DNA of 64,000 nucleotides, taken from Sphingopyxis sp. CCNWLW2 (GTDB taxonomy: Bacteria; Pseudomonadota; Alphaproteobacteria; Sphingomonadales; Sphingomonadaceae). Below are positions 6,772 to 29,093 of the stretch, one piece after another (the first letter of the stretch is position 1; the number at the start of each line of letters is the position of its first letter). Location: positions 558,001 to 622,000 of the forward strand of contig NZ_JBAWKJ010000002.1 of the NCBI RefSeq assembly GCF_037095755.1. The letters are read 5' to 3'. The notes beneath the pieces are model-generated. The model had not been told where the DNA came from. It worked only from the letters and a program-made list of their open reading frames with translations, and made no database searches. The position numbers and the translations under genes were made by a program.

Positions 6772-6830
6772 CTCAAAACCGGCCGTTGCCGAATCAGCGC
6801 CAGCGACGTAAGACAAAATCAGCATCAAGA

Positions 6831-6961
6831 GTTGGGGCGACGCCCAACGCCAACCTGCCGATCCGGGCAAGGTGGCACTCCGCAAGGAGGATGTGGCCGG
6901 GCCGGCAACTAAAGCGGATCAAGCCACCAAGCGTCGAACCCGAAACAGGAAACGACGCACC
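6831..6961 (+). promoter_or_regulatory. structured 5' leader of metA, possible riboswitch of unassigned class
   Basis: The 190 nt before metA contain ordered secondary structure. A perfect hairpin GTTGGG/CCCAAC spans 6831-6848. A 6-bp closing stem GGTGGC (6871-6876)/GCCACC (6923-6928) encloses CTCC-GCAA-GGAG (6878-6889, a GNRA tetraloop) and a short GCC/GGC hairpin (6896-6906), followed by a single-stranded AACTAAAGCGGATCAA. Together these form a plausible three-way junction. The metA Shine-Dalgarno lies about 20 nt further on. Methionine genes of alphaproteobacteria are often controlled by SAM-sensing leaders, but I could not match the SAM-II consensus, so the class is open. Confidence 0.45.
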
Positions 6962-7957
6962 GTGCCCATAACGATACCCGATCAACTCCCTGCTCGACAT
7001 ACTCTCGAAGCCGAGGGCGTCATGGTGATGGGTGAAGCCGACGCCGTACGCCAGGACATCAGGCCGCTGCGGATCGGCTTGCTGAACCTCATGCCGAACA
7101 AGATCGACACCGAAACCCAGCTAGCCCGGCTGCTTGGGGCAACTCCGCTTCAAATCGAATTGACGCTGGTGCGGATGACGGATCATGTTTCGCGCAACAC
7201 GCCGGCCGATCACATGGCGGCCTTCTATCGGCCGTGGAGCGACGTCAGCGCCGAGCGATTCGACGGCTTCATCATCACGGGCGCACCGGTCGAGCGGCTA
7301 CCTTATGAGGATGTTCGCTATTGGCCCGAACTGCGGTCGATCCTTGATTGGACCCAGACGCATGTCCATCGCTGCTTCACGATCTGCTGGGCTGCTCAAG
7401 CCGCCCTTTTTCACTTTCACGGCGTTCCAAAGCGCGACCTGTCGCGCAAAGCTTTCGGCGTGTTCAGGCACCAAAATCTGGCCCCCACGTCGCCTTATCT
7501 AAGGGGTTTTCCGGACACATTCGATGTACCCGTCTCGCGCTGGACAGAGGTTTGCCCGTCCGCTTTGGTCGGCGCCAAAGGGCTGCATGTTCTTGCAGGC
7601 AGTGTCGAAGTCGGCGCCGGCCTTGTCGACGACCGCGCCAACGGAATGCTGCACATGTTCAACCATCTTGAATATGATACCGGCACGCTTGCCTCCGAGT
7701 ACAACCGCGACGGCGCCACGCATTTACCGAAAAGCTATTTTCCTGCCGACGATCCTGAGCGGCCCCCGCAGAACCGGTGGCGCGGCCATGCTCACTTGCT
7801 GTTCGCGAACTGGATCAACGAAATTTATCAAACAACGCCATTTGATTTCACGGATAGCGTGAACGCGAAAACTCCGAAGCCGAAGGCGCCGCTCCTGCGC
7901 CCTCAAGCCGGCAGGGTGATATCTTCCGACGGCCGCAGTTCGTCCTTGCCGGGCTGA
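6962..7957 (+). CDS. metAA: MetA-family homoserine O-acyltransferase, predicted acetyl-CoA-specific
   Basis: A 331-residue MetA enzyme catalysing the first committed step of methionine synthesis, acylation of homoserine. The GTG at 6962 is chosen because it gives [10 protein letters not shown], the usual N-terminus, and puts the nucleophile at Cys142 (TICWAAQ), the same number as in E. coli. The His-x-Glu pair is present in FNHLEYDTG. Position 111 is Glu (GAPVERL) where E. coli has Gly; Glu111 is the known marker of acetyl-CoA rather than succinyl-CoA use. The C-terminus is somewhat longer than usual and overlaps the convergent cinA gene by 55 nt. Confidence 0.92.
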
Positions 7958-13323: not shown

Positions 13324-15615
13324 ATGACGCAATCCCCCACTCTGGCTCTCGACATGGATTCGGACGGCCAGGAAGTGCGCTCGGGCTTCTGGCGCTTTGC
13401 CGCACCGGAATATTATACGCTCGCCATCATCATCAGCGTGGCCATCGCGACCTACATCTTCGTCACCGGCGATGCGCAGAGCGAGCGGTTGCTGACCCCC
13501 GCGCTGGTCGCGGCGATCATGGTCGTCAATCTCGTGCCGGCGATGGCGCTGATCGTGCTCATCGGCAGCCGCGTTGCGCGTGCGCGCGCCGTGCGATCGA
13601 TGGCGGGCGGCAACGGCCGCCTTCATGTCCGGCTCGTCGCACTCTTTTCGTTGATCGCCGCGGCGCCGACGTTGCTCGTCGTGATCTTCGCCTCGTTGCT
13701 GTTCCAGTACGGCGTCGATTTCTGGTTTTCGGATCGCTCGCGCGGCATGTTCGAAAATGCCGCCAATCTTGCAGAGGGATATTATCAGGAAAACCAGCGC
13801 CAGGTCGGCGCGAACACCTATGCCATGGCGACCGATCTCGGCAAGCAATTGAGCCTCGTTCCGATCGATAGCCCGGCCTTCAGCAACTATTATCTGCAAC
13901 AGGTTGTGGTGCGCAGCCTCAATGAATCGGCGATCATCGAAATCGGCAGGGATGGCGTCGCGCGCACGGCGACGGCGATCAACCCTGACGACCGGGCGGC
14001 CGAAACCCGTCTCGGTTCGGCGATGGTTGGCCGCCTCGACGCGGGCGAGGATGTCGTCGTTGTTCGTCAGCCCACGCGAATCGAAGCCGCGGCGCGGCTG
14101 CCCGGCACTGATCGCGCCTACGTCTATGCCTCACGCGACACCAACGTTCCGGGCTTCCAGCAGTCGGCCCGCGCGAGCGCGGTTCTGGCCGACTATAACA
14201 ACCTGTTCGAACGCTCGCAGCAACTCCAGCTGCAATTCAATGGCGCGCTCTATCTTGGTTCATTGCTGCTTCTCGCGCTTGCCGTCATCGCGGCGATCGT
14301 GGTTGCGGATCGTATCGTTCGTCCCCTCGGCACATTGATCGGGGCGACGCGAACCGCTGCCGGCGGCGATCTGTCGGTCCGGGTTACCCCGCCGGCACGC
14401 GATGATGAAATCGCGGTGTTGACGCGCGCTTTCAATAGGATGACCGAGCAGTTGCAGGGCCAGACCGGCGCGCTCGTCAGCGTGAACGAGCAGCTCGAAG
14501 CCCGGCGCAGCTTTATCGAGGCGGTGCTGAGCGGCGTGTCGTCGGCGGTGGTCTCGGTCGATGCCGATCACCGCATCCTGCTCGCAAATGCCGCCGCCGA
14601 GCGCTTGATTTGCCAGTCGGCCGAATGCCTGACGGGGCAGCCCCTCGACGATGTCGCGCCCGAACTGGCGCGTCTGCTGATCAGCGACGAGCGCGAGGCG
14701 ATTGTTCAACTCTCGCGAAAGGATGCCGAGCCCGCGACGCTTGCGGCGAAAGCCGTGGCGCAGGGCGATGGTTTTGTCCTGAGTTTCGAGGACATCACGC
14801 AGCAATTGCTCGATCAGCGCCGCGCCGCCTGGTCCGACGTGGCGCGGCGCATCGCGCACGAGATCAAGAACCCGCTCACCCCGATCCAGCTCGCAGCCGA
14901 ACGGCTCCAACGGCGGTTTGGCGATAAGGTGGAGGGCGATAGTGCCACCTTCCGCAAGCTCACTGACACGGTGATCCGGCAGGTGCACGACATGCGGCGC
15001 ATGGTCGACGAATTTTCGAGCTTTGCCCGGATGCCGAAACCAACCTTCGGGGTCGAGGATGTCCGCGATATCCTGCGCCAGACGGTGTTCCTGTTCGAAG
15101 TCGCAAAGCCCGACATCGCGTTCGCGGTCAAAACGCCCGCCGAGATCGAGCCGCTTGTCTGCGATCGTCGCCTGTTGTCGCAGGCCATGACGAATATTGT
15201 GAAAAATGCTGTCGAAGCGATTGAAGAAAAATACAAAAATTCAGACTCGATTGTCACCGGACATATTGCGGCCGAACTTTTTTCGGGCGCGGATGGCGAG
15301 ATCATCATTCGCGTCTCCGACGACGGCATCGGGCTGCCCGAGGCGCGCGACGCTATTGCCGAGCCTTATATGACGACGCGCCAGGGCGGGACGGGCCTCG
15401 GGCTCGCAATCGTCAAGAAGATCGTCGAGCAACATTATGGCGAACTTGAATTTTCGGACAATCCGGCGGGGCAGGGGACGTGCGTCACCCTGACGCTCCA
15501 CCCCGACCGGCTGAAGTCGTTGGCCGGCAAGGGCGGGGAAGCAAGCATGGGGCATAGTGAATCGGTTCCCGGACGCATCCGGAACCGGCAGGACAGAGAA
15601 GATCATGGCGCTTGA
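13324..15615 (+). CDS. ntrY: membrane sensor kinase NtrY
   Basis: A roughly 763-residue membrane histidine kinase. The N-terminal third has three to four hydrophobic segments (for example IIISVAIATYIFVTG and LVAAIMVVNLVPAMALIVL) and a periplasmic portion. A HAMP domain (IVRPLGTLIGATRTAAGGD), a PAS domain, the phospho-acceptor [16 protein letters not shown] and a HATPase domain (SDDGIGLPEA; GTGLGLAIV) follow. With NtrX it forms a second nitrogen- or redox-related two-component system. The start is uncertain: ATG 13324 is used, but ATG 13294 and TTG 13231 are in frame. The 93-nt gap after ntrC may hold a promoter. Confidence 0.92.
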   Translation: MTQSPTLALDMDSDGQEVRSGFWRFAAPEYYTLAIIISVAIATYIFVTGDAQSERLLTPALVAAIMVVNLVPAMALIVLIGSRVARARAVRSMAGGNGRLHVRLVALFSLIAAAPTLLVVIFASLLFQYGVDFWFSDRSRGMFENAANLAEGYYQENQRQVGANTYAMATDLGKQLSLVPIDSPAFSNYYLQQVVVRSLNESAIIEIGRDGVARTATAINPDDRAAETRLGSAMVGRLDAGEDVVVVRQPTRIEAAARLPGTDRAYVYASRDTNVPGFQQSARASAVLADYNNLFERSQQLQLQFNGALYLGSLLLLALAVIAAIVVADRIVRPLGTLIGATRTAAGGDLSVRVTPPARDDEIAVLTRAFNRMTEQLQGQTGALVSVNEQLEARRSFIEAVLSGVSSAVVSVDADHRILLANAAAERLICQSAECLTGQPLDDVAPELARLLISDEREAIVQLSRKDAEPATLAAKAVAQGDGFVLSFEDITQQLLDQRRAAWSDVARRIAHEIKNPLTPIQLAAERLQRRFGDKVEGDSATFRKLTDTVIRQVHDMRRMVDEFSSFARMPKPTFGVEDVRDILRQTVFLFEVAKPDIAFAVKTPAEIEPLVCDRRLLSQAMTNIVKNAVEAIEEKYKNSDSIVTGHIAAELFSGADGEIIIRVSDDGIGLPEARDAIAEPYMTTRQGGTGLGLAIVKKIVEQHYGELEFSDNPAGQGTCVTLTLHPDRLKSLAGKGGEASMGHSESVPGRIRNRQDREDHGA

Positions 15616-16984
15616 TATTCTGATCGTCGACGACGAACGCGACATTTGCGACCTTGTCGCCGGCGTCATGGAAGACGAAGGTTATGAGGCGCGCACCGCG
15701 TCGGACAGCGACTCTGCGCTGGAAGCGATCCGCCAGCGGCGGCCGTCGCTCGCGCTGATCGACGTCTGGCTGCAAGGGTCGCGGCTCGATGGGCTGGGGC
15801 TGGTCGAGGCGATCAAGGCGTTCGATCCGACGCTGCCGATCATCGTCATTTCGGGTCATGGCGGGCTCGATACCGCGGTCGCGGCGATCCGCCGGGGCGC
15901 GTTCGATTTCATCGAAAAGCCGTTCGAAGCGTCGCGACTTCTTCACCTCGTCGCGCGCGCGACCGAGAGCGAGCGGCTGAAGTTCGAATATGAGCAATTG
16001 CGCGAGAAGGCAGGCCCGTCGGACGAACTGACCGGCACCAGCGCCGCGATCAACAATGTCCGCGCGACGCTGAAGCGCGTCGCGGGGACGGGAAGCCGGG
16101 TGTTGATCACGGGTGCGCCCGGCGTCGGCAAGGAGGTGGCCGCGCGTGTGCTGCACGGATGGAGTGGCAGGCATAACGCGCCGTTCCGCGTCATTTCATC
16201 GGCGCGGATGGATCCCGAGACGGTCGAAACCGAATTATTCGGGTCCGAAGCCGAGGATGGTTCGATCCGCGTCGGCCTGCTCGAACAGGCGCATGGCGGG
16301 ACCCTGTTCCTCGATGAGGTCGCCGACATGCCGCTGACGACGCAGGGCAAGATCCTGCGCGTCCTCACCGATCAGAGCTTCGCGCGGGTGGGTGGCCGCA
16401 CGATGATCCGCGTCGATGTGCGGATTATTTCGGGGTCGGCGCGCGATCTGATGACCGAAATCGCCGAAAGCCGCTTTCGCGAGGACCTCTATTACCGGCT
16501 GAACGTCGTGCCCGTCCACATCCCGCCGCTGCGCGAGCGGCGCGACGATATCGCCAGCCTCTGCGACCATTATATCCGTCGTTATGCCGCCGACCGCCGC
16601 GTCGCGCCGCCCGAAATCAGTTCCGAGGCGATGGCCGCGCTCCAGGCGCACGAGTGGCCAGGTAACGTCCGCGAACTGCGCAATGTGATCGAGCGCGTGA
16701 TGATTTTGGCGCCCAGCGACCGGCTGGCGCGGATCGACGCCGATATGCTGCCGTCGGAGCTGGTGCGCGGCGGGACCGACATATTGCCTAATTCGGAATC
16801 GATCACCGCGATCCCGCTGAAGGAAGCGCGCGAGAATTTCGAGCGCGAATATCTGCGCATCCAGATCAACCGTTTTTCGGGCAATATTTCGCGCACCGCG
16901 ACCTTTATCGGCATGGAGCGCTCGGCGCTGCACCGCAAACTGAAACTTTTGGGGCTTACCGAGAGTTCGGACGGCGAGGGATAG
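15605..16984 (+). CDS. ntrX: response regulator NtrX (AAA+ domain without GAFTGA)
   Basis: A 459-residue NtrC-like regulator. The receiver has Asp53 (ALIDVWLQG) and the EKPFE lysine. The AAA+ domain has a variant Walker A (GAPGVGKEVAARVL) and GTLFLDEVADMP, and the C-terminus ends with a Fis-type HTH (SRTATFIGMERSALHRKL). Where NtrC has GAFTGA, NtrX reads FGSEAEDGSIRVGLLEQ: the sigma54-contact loop is missing, so it probably acts with sigma70-type polymerase or as a repressor. ATG 15605 is preferred (AGAGAAG just upstream) and overlaps the end of ntrY by 11 nt. Confidence 0.94.
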   Translation: MALDILIVDDERDICDLVAGVMEDEGYEARTASDSDSALEAIRQRRPSLALIDVWLQGSRLDGLGLVEAIKAFDPTLPIIVISGHGGLDTAVAAIRRGAFDFIEKPFEASRLLHLVARATESERLKFEYEQLREKAGPSDELTGTSAAINNVRATLKRVAGTGSRVLITGAPGVGKEVAARVLHGWSGRHNAPFRVISSARMDPETVETELFGSEAEDGSIRVGLLEQAHGGTLFLDEVADMPLTTQGKILRVLTDQSFARVGGRTMIRVDVRIISGSARDLMTEIAESRFREDLYYRLNVVPVHIPPLRERRDDIASLCDHYIRRYAADRRVAPPEISSEAMAALQAHEWPGNVRELRNVIERVMILAPSDRLARIDADMLPSELVRGGTDILPNSESITAIPLKEARENFEREYLRIQINRFSGNISRTATFIGMERSALHRKLKLLGLTESSDGEG

Positions 16985-17048: not shown

Positions 17049-17102
17049 GCCGGAAAACCGGCACCGTACCCGCGGTTTTACCGCCAAAAACAGGAGGCAA
17101 AT
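17049..17102 (+). promoter_or_regulatory. hfq leader with two hairpins and strong Shine-Dalgarno
   Basis: The 118-nt gap between ntrX and hfq ends with two small perfect hairpins, GCCGG-AAAA-CCGGC (17049-17062) and GCGG-TTTTA-CCGC (17072-17084). A run of A follows and then AGGAGG (17092-17097), 5 nt before the GTG start. The A- and U-rich loops and the A run are the type of sequence Hfq itself binds, so translational autocontrol is plausible by analogy with E. coli. The hairpins could instead be a weak processing or attenuation site. This is inference from the sequence alone. Confidence 0.4.
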
Positions 17103-17603
17103 GTGTCCGATAAAAACCAGAATCTCCAGGATATTTTCCTCAACGCCCTCCGCAAAAGCAAAACCCCGGTGACCATGTTCCTGGTTAAGGGCGTCAAGCT
17201 GCAGGGCATCATCACCTGGTTCGACAACTTCTCGCTGCTGCTCCGCCGTGATGGTCAGTCGCAGCTTGTCTACAAGCACGCGATTTCGACGGTGATGCCT
17301 TCGCACGATTTCGACCTGTCGCTGCTCGGCGACAATCTGCGCGATGCGCCGGCGAGCAAAGGCAAGGCGCTGCAAGATGTCTTCCTCAACGCGGTGCGCA
17401 AGTCGGACGAGTCGGTGACGATGTTCCTCGTCAATGGCGTGATGTTGCAGGGCGATATCGTCGCATTCGACCTGTTCTGCATGCTGCTCGAGCGCGAGCG
17501 TCAGGTTCAGCTCGTCTACAAGCATGCGATTTCGACCGTTCAGCCGAACGGCCCGATCAACCTAACCGACAGCGAGCCGGACGCAGAAGCGGACAACGCC
17601 TGA
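17103..17603 (+). CDS. hfq: RNA chaperone Hfq, tandem two-domain form
   Basis: A 166-residue protein made of two complete Hfq Sm-like domains (about residues 5-68 and 87-150) joined by an acidic-leaning linker. Each domain has the Sm1 core (FLNALRKS.. and FLNAVRKS..) and the diagnostic Sm2 motif VYKHAIST. Ordinary Hfq is 70-100 residues and forms a hexamer, so this form should give a trimer of doublets. Domain 1 is close to alphaproteobacterial Hfq. Domain 2 has Met114 in place of the distal-site Lys31 equivalent, Leu124 in place of Gln41, and Asp102 on the rim. The GTG start follows AGGAGG. It lies between ntrX and hflX, the usual hfq place. Confidence 0.95.
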
Positions 17604-18952
17604 TCGACCCGATAATCGACAATGAAGACGAGGTAACGCGCGGCGCCGCCGCGCTTATCGTCGTGCCCGAATGGCATAGCCAGCGGCTTGCCCGCGATCT
17701 CGACGCGCGCGCCGAGGAGGCGCGGGGGCTTGCGCTTGCGATCGGGCTCGACGTCGTCGCGGTGCATACGCTCCGCCTGCGCCAGACGCGCGCCGCGACT
17801 TTGCTCGGCGTCGGGCAGATCGATGCGATTACGCCCGATATCGCGGCAAAGGATGTCCAGCTGGTCGTCGTCGATGCTGCGCTCAGCCCGATCCAGCAGC
17901 GCAATCTCGAAACCGCGTTCGGGACGAAGGTGATCGACCGCACCGGCCTGATCCTCGAAATCTTCGGCGAGCGCGCCGCGACCTCCGAGGGGCGGCTGCA
18001 GGTCGAACTCGCGCATCTCGATTATCAGGCGGGGCGGCTGGTGCGCAGCTGGACCCACCTTGAGCGTCAGCGCGGCGGCTTTGGCTTCCTCGGCGGGCCG
18101 GGCGAAACGCAGATCGAGGCCGACCGGCGGATGATCCGCAACCGCATGGCGCGTATCCGGCGCAGCCTCGAAGATGCGCGCCGAACGCGGCAGCTACAGC
18201 GATCGAAGCGGCAGCGCGCACCGTGGCCGGTGGTGGCTCTTGTCGGCTATACCAACGCCGGAAAATCGACGTTCTTCAATCGGTTGACCGGAAGTGACGT
18301 CATGGCGGAAGATATGCTTTTCGCCACGCTCGACCCGACGATGCGCGAAATCCGGCTGCCCGGCATCGACAAGGCGATCCTGTCGGACACGGTGGGTTTT
18401 GTGTCCGACCTGCCGACCGAATTGGTCGCGGCGTTCCGCGCGACGCTGGAGGAAGTCACCACCGCAGACCTGATCGTTCATGTCCGCGATATCGTTCATC
18501 CTGACAGCGAAGCGCAATATGACGACGTGCGCGCCATTCTGAACTCGCTCGGTGTCAACGGGCCGCAGGATGGGGAGGAGGGCGATGCGCCGCCGGTGAT
18601 CCAGCAGATTGAAATCTGGAACAAGATCGACACCGCCGATGGCGATCGCCGGGCGGACATTGAAGAGATGGCAGCGCGGCGCCCCGACGTGGCCGTGATA
18701 TCGGCCGTGACGGGCGAGGGCGTCGAAGCCGCGCGAACCCTTATGGCGTCACAATTGACCGCGCTGCATAAGGTGCGGCGCATCTATCTGAGCTACGGCC
18801 AGGGCGAAGCGGCGGCGTGGCTTCACGCGCGGGGCGAAGTACTCGCGGACGAGCCCGAGGCGGAAGGTCATGTGCTGACGGTGCGGCTCGATCCCGCCGA
18901 CAGCGCGCGGTTCGAACGGCTCTGGCCGGCTACGGACGCTCCGACGCCTTAA
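17600..18952 (+). CDS. hflX: ribosome-associated GTPase HflX
   Basis: An approximately 450-residue GTPase that binds 50S subunits and can split stalled ribosomes. An N-terminal HflX domain ([40 protein letters not shown]) and a glycine-rich linker ([16 protein letters not shown]) precede the G domain with GYTNAGKST (G1), [10 protein letters not shown] (G3) and NKID (G4). The only ordinary in-frame start after hfq is GTG 17663, which would cut into the first predicted strand (AALIVVPEW). The frame is open back to CTG 17600, which overlaps the hfq stop as CTGA and gives [14 protein letters not shown]. The CTG start is therefore proposed but unproven. Confidence 0.9.
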
Positions 18953-29003: not shown

Positions 29004-29093
29004 GGACAGGTGGCCGAGTGGTTTAAGGCAGCGGTCTTGAAAACCGCCGTGGGTGCAAGCTCACCGTGGGTTCGAATCCCACCCTGTCCGCCA
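29004..29093 (+). tRNA. tRNA-Ser (anticodon TGA)
   Basis: A class II tRNA of 90 nt including encoded CCA. The acceptor stem GGACAGG pairs with CCTGTCC (29083-29089); the discriminator is G and CCA follows. The anticodon loop CTTGAAA on stem GCGGT/ACCGC places TGA at 29038-29040, reading UCA and, by wobble, other UCN serine codons. The long variable arm (GTGGGTGCAAGCTCAC) and the TTCGAAT T-loop confirm tRNA-Ser. No integrated element is seen at its 3' end; the next gene converges on it at 29098. Confidence 0.97.

Follow-up and report, generated by a model that had tools for sequence, protein, structure and literature searches.

The window analysed here is the whole 64,000-nucleotide stretch of Sphingopyxis sp. 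CCNWLW2 DNA shown above. It carries an hfq gene whose product consists of two Hfq domains, D1 and D2, joined in one chain (a doublet). The gene, its parts and its neighbours are as follows, in window coordinates.

15557..16984, forward strand: ntrX, the upstream neighbour and a synteny marker (NCBIfam NF051870, 703.9 bits)
17092..17097, forward strand: AGGAGG, Shine-Dalgarno-like, read from the sequence
17103..17603, forward strand: hfq, encoding a tandem two-domain Hfq of 166 aa (GTG start, translation, NCBIfam NF010691)
17124..17306, forward strand: Hfq domain 1, D1 (PF17209, 103.8 bits; contig 575124-575306)
17187..17189, forward strand: codon of Lys29 in D1 (E. coli position 28), a fixed substitution specific to D1
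17301..17369, forward strand: inter-domain linker, residues 67-89, lying between the equivalents of Pro64 and Leu7
17370..17558, forward strand: Hfq domain 2, D2 (PF17209, 90.4 bits; contig 575370-575558)
17442..17444, forward strand: codon of Met114 in D2 (E. coli position 31), a substitution specific to D2
17547..17600, forward strand: short acidic C-terminal tail, residues 149-166, the single tail of the doublet
17663..18952, forward strand: hflX, the downstream neighbour and a synteny marker (NCBIfam TIGR03156, 429.2 bits)

Both halves of the chain lie well clear of chance at the PF17209 cut-off of 27 bits, which upholds the statement in an earlier, sequence-only reading of this DNA that two full Hfq domains are present in one chain. 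Their cores are 66% identical to each other. The whole protein scores 184.9 bits with TIGR02383 (cut-off 61.7), and the helix and five strands of the Sm fold are found in it. The proximal-pore residues Gln8, Lys56 and His57 occur in D1 and D2 alike; the same reading had named Gln9/91, Phe43/125 and the YKH triplets at 57-59/139-141 as kept in both domains, and this is correct as it stood. A PF17209 search of the 4.6 Mb genome returned two matches, which are the two halves of this protein, and no second Hfq gene. The first two codons of the linker overlap the 3' end of the D1 match, and among 102 distinct tandem proteins the linker has a median length of 22 residues (range 15-23). Of the 36 loci of the genus Sphingopyxis that were tallied, that of CCNWLW2 included, 35 begin hfq with GTG (L115 and L121 are outside the tally).

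Tandem Hfq in earlier work

The fusion itself is not new, as the sequence-only reading also remarked, since a two-domain Hfq was reported in 2010 for Zymomonas mobilis (ZMO0347) and for another six species of Sphingomonadales (PMC2877685), and NCBIfam holds a model of the tandem protein (NF010691/PRK14091). The accessible part of that report describes two Sm-like domains, which give the chain a second set of interaction sites and a second nucleotide pocket, asks whether three proteins would suffice for a ring, and records tolerance phenotypes of a Z. mobilis hfq mutant. The same part contains no site-by-site comparison of D1 with D2, no exchange at positions 28 and 31, and no placement of the duplication on a tree. 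CCNWLW2 Hfq has the same two Sm/Hfq domains per chain as the Z. mobilis-type protein. It scores 306 bits with the tandem model (cut-off 270), residues 1-161 aligning with model positions 16-174 of 176, and all 62 proteins in an alignment of CCNWLW2 Hfq with 61 relatives (A1) match PRK14091 at E <= 1e-10. A term search of the accessible text of three Z. mobilis papers (PMC9797736, PMC5770649, PMC7546472) found nothing on the domain architecture of Hfq, and the matches listed from the open-access literature held no answer to the question of three chains or six. No solved tandem structure was found by sequence in the PDB, where the 35 distinct Hfq sequences retrieved range from 63 to 114 residues. 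In Sphingopyxis granuli TFA the sRNA SuhB acts in an Hfq-dependent manner, according to excerpts of PMC6563040. The architecture is known; what is new here is a clear, testable account of how the two domains differ.

Distribution of tandem and single-domain Hfq

An Hfq match was found in 388 of 397 Sphingomonadaceae genomes, and nine were without one. Full tandems were recognised by score in 335 of these genomes (E below 1e-50), and five more, diverged and all of genus g98, by reading the sequences. Single-domain Hfq was indicated by score in 47 genomes from 15 genera; 17 of these, at least one per genus, were read, giving 16 intact single-domain proteins and one broken gene (L165). In one further genome (G436) the match is broken at a contig end.

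Outside the family no tandem was seen by score. With CCNWLW2 Hfq as query there was none in 24 genomes from other families of the order. In a class sample of 387 genomes the six tandem-like scores all belonged to Sphingomonadaceae (every one of the six sampled), with none among 327 matching genomes outside the family. A phylum sample of 299 genomes gave tandem-like scores in 15 of 16 Sphingomonadaceae and in none of 225 matching genomes outside. These counts were made by score and could have overlooked a tandem of divergent sequence or independent origin, because the five g98 tandems themselves score like single-domain proteins. A few genomes carry two Hfq matches, eg seven in the phylum sample, one in the class sample and one in the order.

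The low scores of genus g98 raised the possibility that it had lost D2. This was rejected on reading five of ten sampled low-scoring genomes, as two diverged domains are present in each (L145, L146, L148, L164 and L166). In all five, Lys occupies position 28 of D1, and position 31 of D2 is Met, Leu or Ala. Their D2 keeps Gln8, Gln52, Lys56 and His57; every one of the five has changes at Gln33 and Tyr55, and two have a change at Phe42. Both domains are much diverged, the proteins being 42-51% identical to CCNWLW2 Hfq, and they show Phe-Lys-His in D2, Gly in place of Trp38 in D1, and almost no acidic tail.

Support for a single duplication in place

The gene hflX is adjacent to hfq at 113 of 115 tandem loci (the other two have no hflX match) and at all 47 single-domain loci. 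For ntrX the figures are 114 of 115 tandem loci compared with 18 of 47 single-domain loci. We take the CCNWLW2 gene to be the ordinary hfq of the cell, standing before hflX just as the single-domain gene of alphaproteobacteria does.

In a tree of 152 HflX proteins (108 from tandem and 44 from single-domain loci) the tandem rows formed one side of a single branch with SH-aLRT support of 96, so that tandem versus single is accounted for by one change; the tree came from a quick search, was midpoint-rooted and has long branches flagged. None of its single-domain rows fell within the tandem clade. Eighteen from the same family lay outside it, the nearest being L147. A tree built from 169 distinct domains placed D1 in one clade (support 100/96) and D2 in another (100/100), each recovered in 200 of 200 bootstrap trees, on only 62 columns, with the bootstrap unsettled and long branches flagged. 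As D1 and D2 are each a single clade, there is no sign of gene conversion. A single in-frame, in-place duplication in the ancestor of most sampled Sphingomonadaceae, with copies that have stayed unhomogenised, is the simplest reading and is well supported. Loss of D2 in the single-domain genera of the family was also considered and found no support: in the HflX tree their rows fall outside the tandem clade, and those that were read have Asn28 and Lys31. That pair would not be the product of a deletion between the two domains.

Reciprocal substitutions at positions 28 and 31

Sites were compared in 115 tandem and 47 single-domain proteins and numbered after the E. coli Hfq sequence. L165, which has an internal TAA, L144, whose frame is broken close to the end of a contig, and the two copies of the window's own locus (L031 and L032) were dropped before counting. 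Because the window's genus, or the name Sphingopyxis, accounts for 38 of the 115 tandem rows, the raw counts lean towards that genus. Several genomes are present twice, and a set of 88 distinct tandems was made by removing rows with identical domains; the truncated L081 was left out of the 88-, 102- and 114-row sets.

The two domains differ at positions 28 and 31. Position 28 is Lys in D1 and Asn in D2 in all 115 tandems, and Asn in all 47 single-domain proteins (Lys in none). Position 31 is Lys in every single-domain protein; in D1 it is Lys in 110 and Arg in 5, and in D2 it is Met in 112, Ala in 2 and Leu in 1. Read as positions 28 and 31 of D1 followed by those of D2, 109 of 114 tandems are K,K,N,M and the other five are K,R,N,(M/A/L), compared with N,K in the 47 singles. 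CCNWLW2 Hfq itself has Lys29 and Lys32 in D1, and Asn111 and Met114 in D2. The doublet thus keeps two basic residues at 28/31, now both in D1. With Lys acquired by D1 at position 28 and Lys31 absent from D2, the picture is one of redistribution and not of plain loss from D2.

When a site was called derived if at least 90% of the singles shared one state and at least 85% of a domain another, in the 88 distinct tandems, D1 had one such site (28) and D2 had three (31; 38, Trp to Ala; and 63, Met to Gln). The derived states are conserved at 100% (Lys28 in D1), 98% (Gln63), 97% (Met31) and 86% (Ala38). Among the 59 columns of D2, Gln63 ranks 20th and Met31 23rd in conservation.

The sequence-only reading had placed all the change in D2. 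The asymmetry it described is real, old and specific, but it overlooked the fixed change of D1 itself, from Asn to Lys29. Its observation that Met114 replaces the distal-site Lys in D2 holds as made. Leu124 is indeed present, but not as the loss of Gln41: D1 has Asn42, all 47 singles have Asn, and the change is from Asn to Leu. That the listed D2 substitutions would be fixed and not freely varying is true of Met114, half true of Leu124, as position 41 of D2 is commonly but not invariably Leu (100 of 115, with Gln in 9, Ala in 3 and others in 3), and untrue of the rim residues, which vary.

Caulobacter crescentus Hfq is a homohexamer. Its chain (PDB 6gwk) has a single domain in which position 28 is Asn and position 31 is Lys, whereas CCNWLW2 Hfq has two domains. 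Compared with E. coli and Pseudomonas Hfq, with their A-R-N distal site, the CCNWLW2 protein is without Lys31 in one domain and has an extra Lys28 in the other. In the published excerpts available, position 31 acts in the A and R sites through its backbone amide (PMC6422490), and residue 28 contacts the N nucleotide through its backbone in simulations (PMC8121710). Excerpts of two mutant studies show that position 31 matters in E. coli: only 26 +/- 4% of K31A Hfq was mRNA-bound, placing it among the worst-impaired mutants (PMC7987339), and K31A chimeras in a preprint gave 28% of wild type, with mild effects cited from an earlier reporter study (PMC12262471).

Pore, pockets, rim and charge

D2 has kept the residues of the pore and base pockets. 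Gln8 is present in all 115 copies of each domain, and Lys56 in 114 of 115 copies of D2, the remaining row being truncated. Sixteen pocket and pore columns, picked by us, in part from the literature, and including 28, 31, 41 and the A- and R-site residues given in PMC6422490, had a median entropy in D2 of 0.00, compared with 1.06 for the 43 other columns (p = 1.9e-5). The sequence-only reading had expected weak A-sites in D2. Against this, the residues listed as contacting bases in the A and R sites (25, 26, 30, 32, 33, 52 and 61) are largely kept in D2, at 94 to 100%. The base-contact residues given in the accessible part of PMC6422490 are present in both domains of CCNWLW2 Hfq; Phe stands for Tyr25 and Val for Ile30 of E. 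coli and Pseudomonas Hfq, as in all 47 singles. Gln8, Asp40 and Tyr55, intersubunit residues according to an excerpt of PMC9228748, are retained in D1 and in D2 in the 115-tandem comparison.

The rim of D2 is less conserved than that of D1. Over positions 13 and 16-21 the mean entropy is 2.19 bits in D2 and 0.70 in D1. Arg16 is present in 87 of 115 copies of D2 and in all copies of D1, and Lys or Arg occupies position 17 in 69 of 115 copies of D2, again against all of D1. Position 19 of D2 is variable (Asp 37, Gly 36, Glu 17, Asn 7, Arg 5, Ala 5). A weakened D2 rim had been proposed from the CCNWLW2 sequence, and the proposal holds across the family, but mostly not at the residues named. Ser101 is not a loss, its counterpart in D1 being Ser19 (Glu18 in E. 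coli). The CCNWLW2 D2 also retains Arg99 and Lys100, which correspond to Arg16 and Arg17 of the E. coli protein. Asp102 is a genuine change of rim charge (Lys20 in D1, Arg19 in E. coli) and the chief difference in the CCNWLW2 rim; an R19D rim mutant at the equivalent position is among those in the excerpted text of PMC7987339.

The mean core charge is +4 in singles, +4.9 in D1 and -1.4 in D2 (+5 and -2 for the two domains of CCNWLW2). The tail after D2 has a median net charge of -5 and is negative in 99 of 102 distinct tandems. D2 has evolved about twice as fast as D1, with mean p-distances of 0.306 and 0.165 over the 88 distinct tandems, or 0.275 and 0.130 after removal of the five diverged ones. 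At variable sites the faster evolution of D2 could reflect relaxation and not specialisation. An analysis of D1-D2 covariation drew on the 88 distinct proteins, whose Neff of 24 amounts to few independent sequences.

Predicted structure and a model of the ring

AlphaFold2 predicted two Hfq folds for the CCNWLW2 protein (pLDDT 88.7, core pLDDT 92-98, pTM 0.84), and for the diverged relative L166, 43% identical to it, the pTM was 0.87. These are monomer predictions, judged by their confidence scores. A single Hfq chain gives a TM of only 0.36-0.41 against the doublet model when normalised to doublet length, so pTM values of 0.84 and 0.87 imply a confident mutual placement of D1 and D2. In fold searches with the doublet model the 50 matches listed in each were all single Hfq chains; the searches confirm the Hfq fold of the predicted model, chiefly for D1, and barely probe D2.

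It is probable, in our view, that three doublets form one ring in which D1 and D2 alternate and the two halves divide the work. Three chains would close into one six-domain ring, with both kinds of subunit lining one U-binding pore and one distal A-R-N track. D1 contributes the two distal lysines (28 and 31) together with the basic rim. D2, which keeps the residues of the pore and base pockets, has no lysine at the distal positions, and its rim is relaxed and its core on average net acidic. Because D2 is without a distal lysine, lysines would stand beside every second distal segment only, ie the distal face would present three lysine-rich and three lysine-free segments. The rim would have three reliable annealing patches, not six. 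Each doublet has a single acidic tail, the linker occupying the place of D1's tail, and nearly all base contacts would be retained in the U pockets and the A-R-N pockets, six of each. The substitutions in D1 and D2 are read directly from the alignment; the division of labour is what we infer as their functional consequence. A more detailed proposal is put forward tentatively, as having something less than an even chance: reciprocal remodelling may have produced, in most Sphingomonadaceae, a pseudo-hexamer of three doublets with true three-fold symmetry, in which D1 has taken over the rim and both distal lysines, D2 is a lysine-free acidic pocket subunit, RNA is bound with a two-triplet period on the distal face and annealed on three patches of the rim, and mRNA and sRNA are held in a fixed register.

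The conserved interface residues suit two stacked homohexamers equally well. Six doublets could build such rings, one of D1 domains that resembles ordinary Hfq and an acidic one of D2 domains, joined by six linkers; interface conservation in both domains, the self-consistency of each domain type and a linker of the median length, which could span the distance, are all in keeping with this. We nevertheless regard it as rather improbable, since the confident D1-D2 placement in the two AlphaFold models reads more easily as side-by-side packing within a chain, and the gain of Lys28 in D1 with Lys31 absent from D2 would be more natural on one RNA track. Very unlikely is a hexamer made by D1, with D2 dangling from it either in decay or in an accessory role. 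The roughly twofold rate of D2, its relaxed rim and its average net negative core would fit such a fate, but across the 88 distinct proteins its residues in the pore, the pockets and the interface scarcely vary, if at all, Gln8, Gln52, Lys56 and His57 survive even in the fast g98 clade, and no single-domain row is nested in the tandem clade.

A different objection leaves the alternating ring in place and is compatible with it, so the likelihoods expressed here are not meant to add up to certainty. It holds that the asymmetry is without function, the six rim and distal sites having become redundant after duplication and D2 having drifted. The free variation of D2 rim positions agrees with this, as does the partial activity retained by E. 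coli K31A and R16A in the accessible part of PMC12262471. Drift alone, however, does not predict conserved derived states such as Lys28, Gln63, Met31 and Ala38, and the low mRNA occupancy of K31A in the excerpt of PMC7987339 also speaks against it; we consider it unlikely, if worth keeping in mind. The alternating ring with divided work is the reading that we prefer.

Implications for Hfq function

Hfq has been studied as a symmetric hexamer, in which any mutation strikes six sites together. The asymmetry of the tandem protein is strong and old. If the alternation is real, a natural ring of two linked, unequal subunits would make it possible to ask which of the six sites of each kind (distal, rim and proximal) the ring requires, and whether RNA is bound to it in a fixed register. 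A two-triplet period (strong, weak, strong, weak), if true, would provide a docking register that is unavailable to a symmetric hexamer. The substitutions tabulated between D1 and D2 name the residues for swapping.

Other features of the window

An ORF ending at 7957 presumably encodes a homoserine acyltransferase of the MetA/MetX type, judging by eye. It is headed by a SAM-I/IV riboswitch (RF01725, 62.7 bits) at window positions 6817-6922 on the forward strand. A tRNA gene was identified by Rfam at 29004-29090, also on the forward strand.
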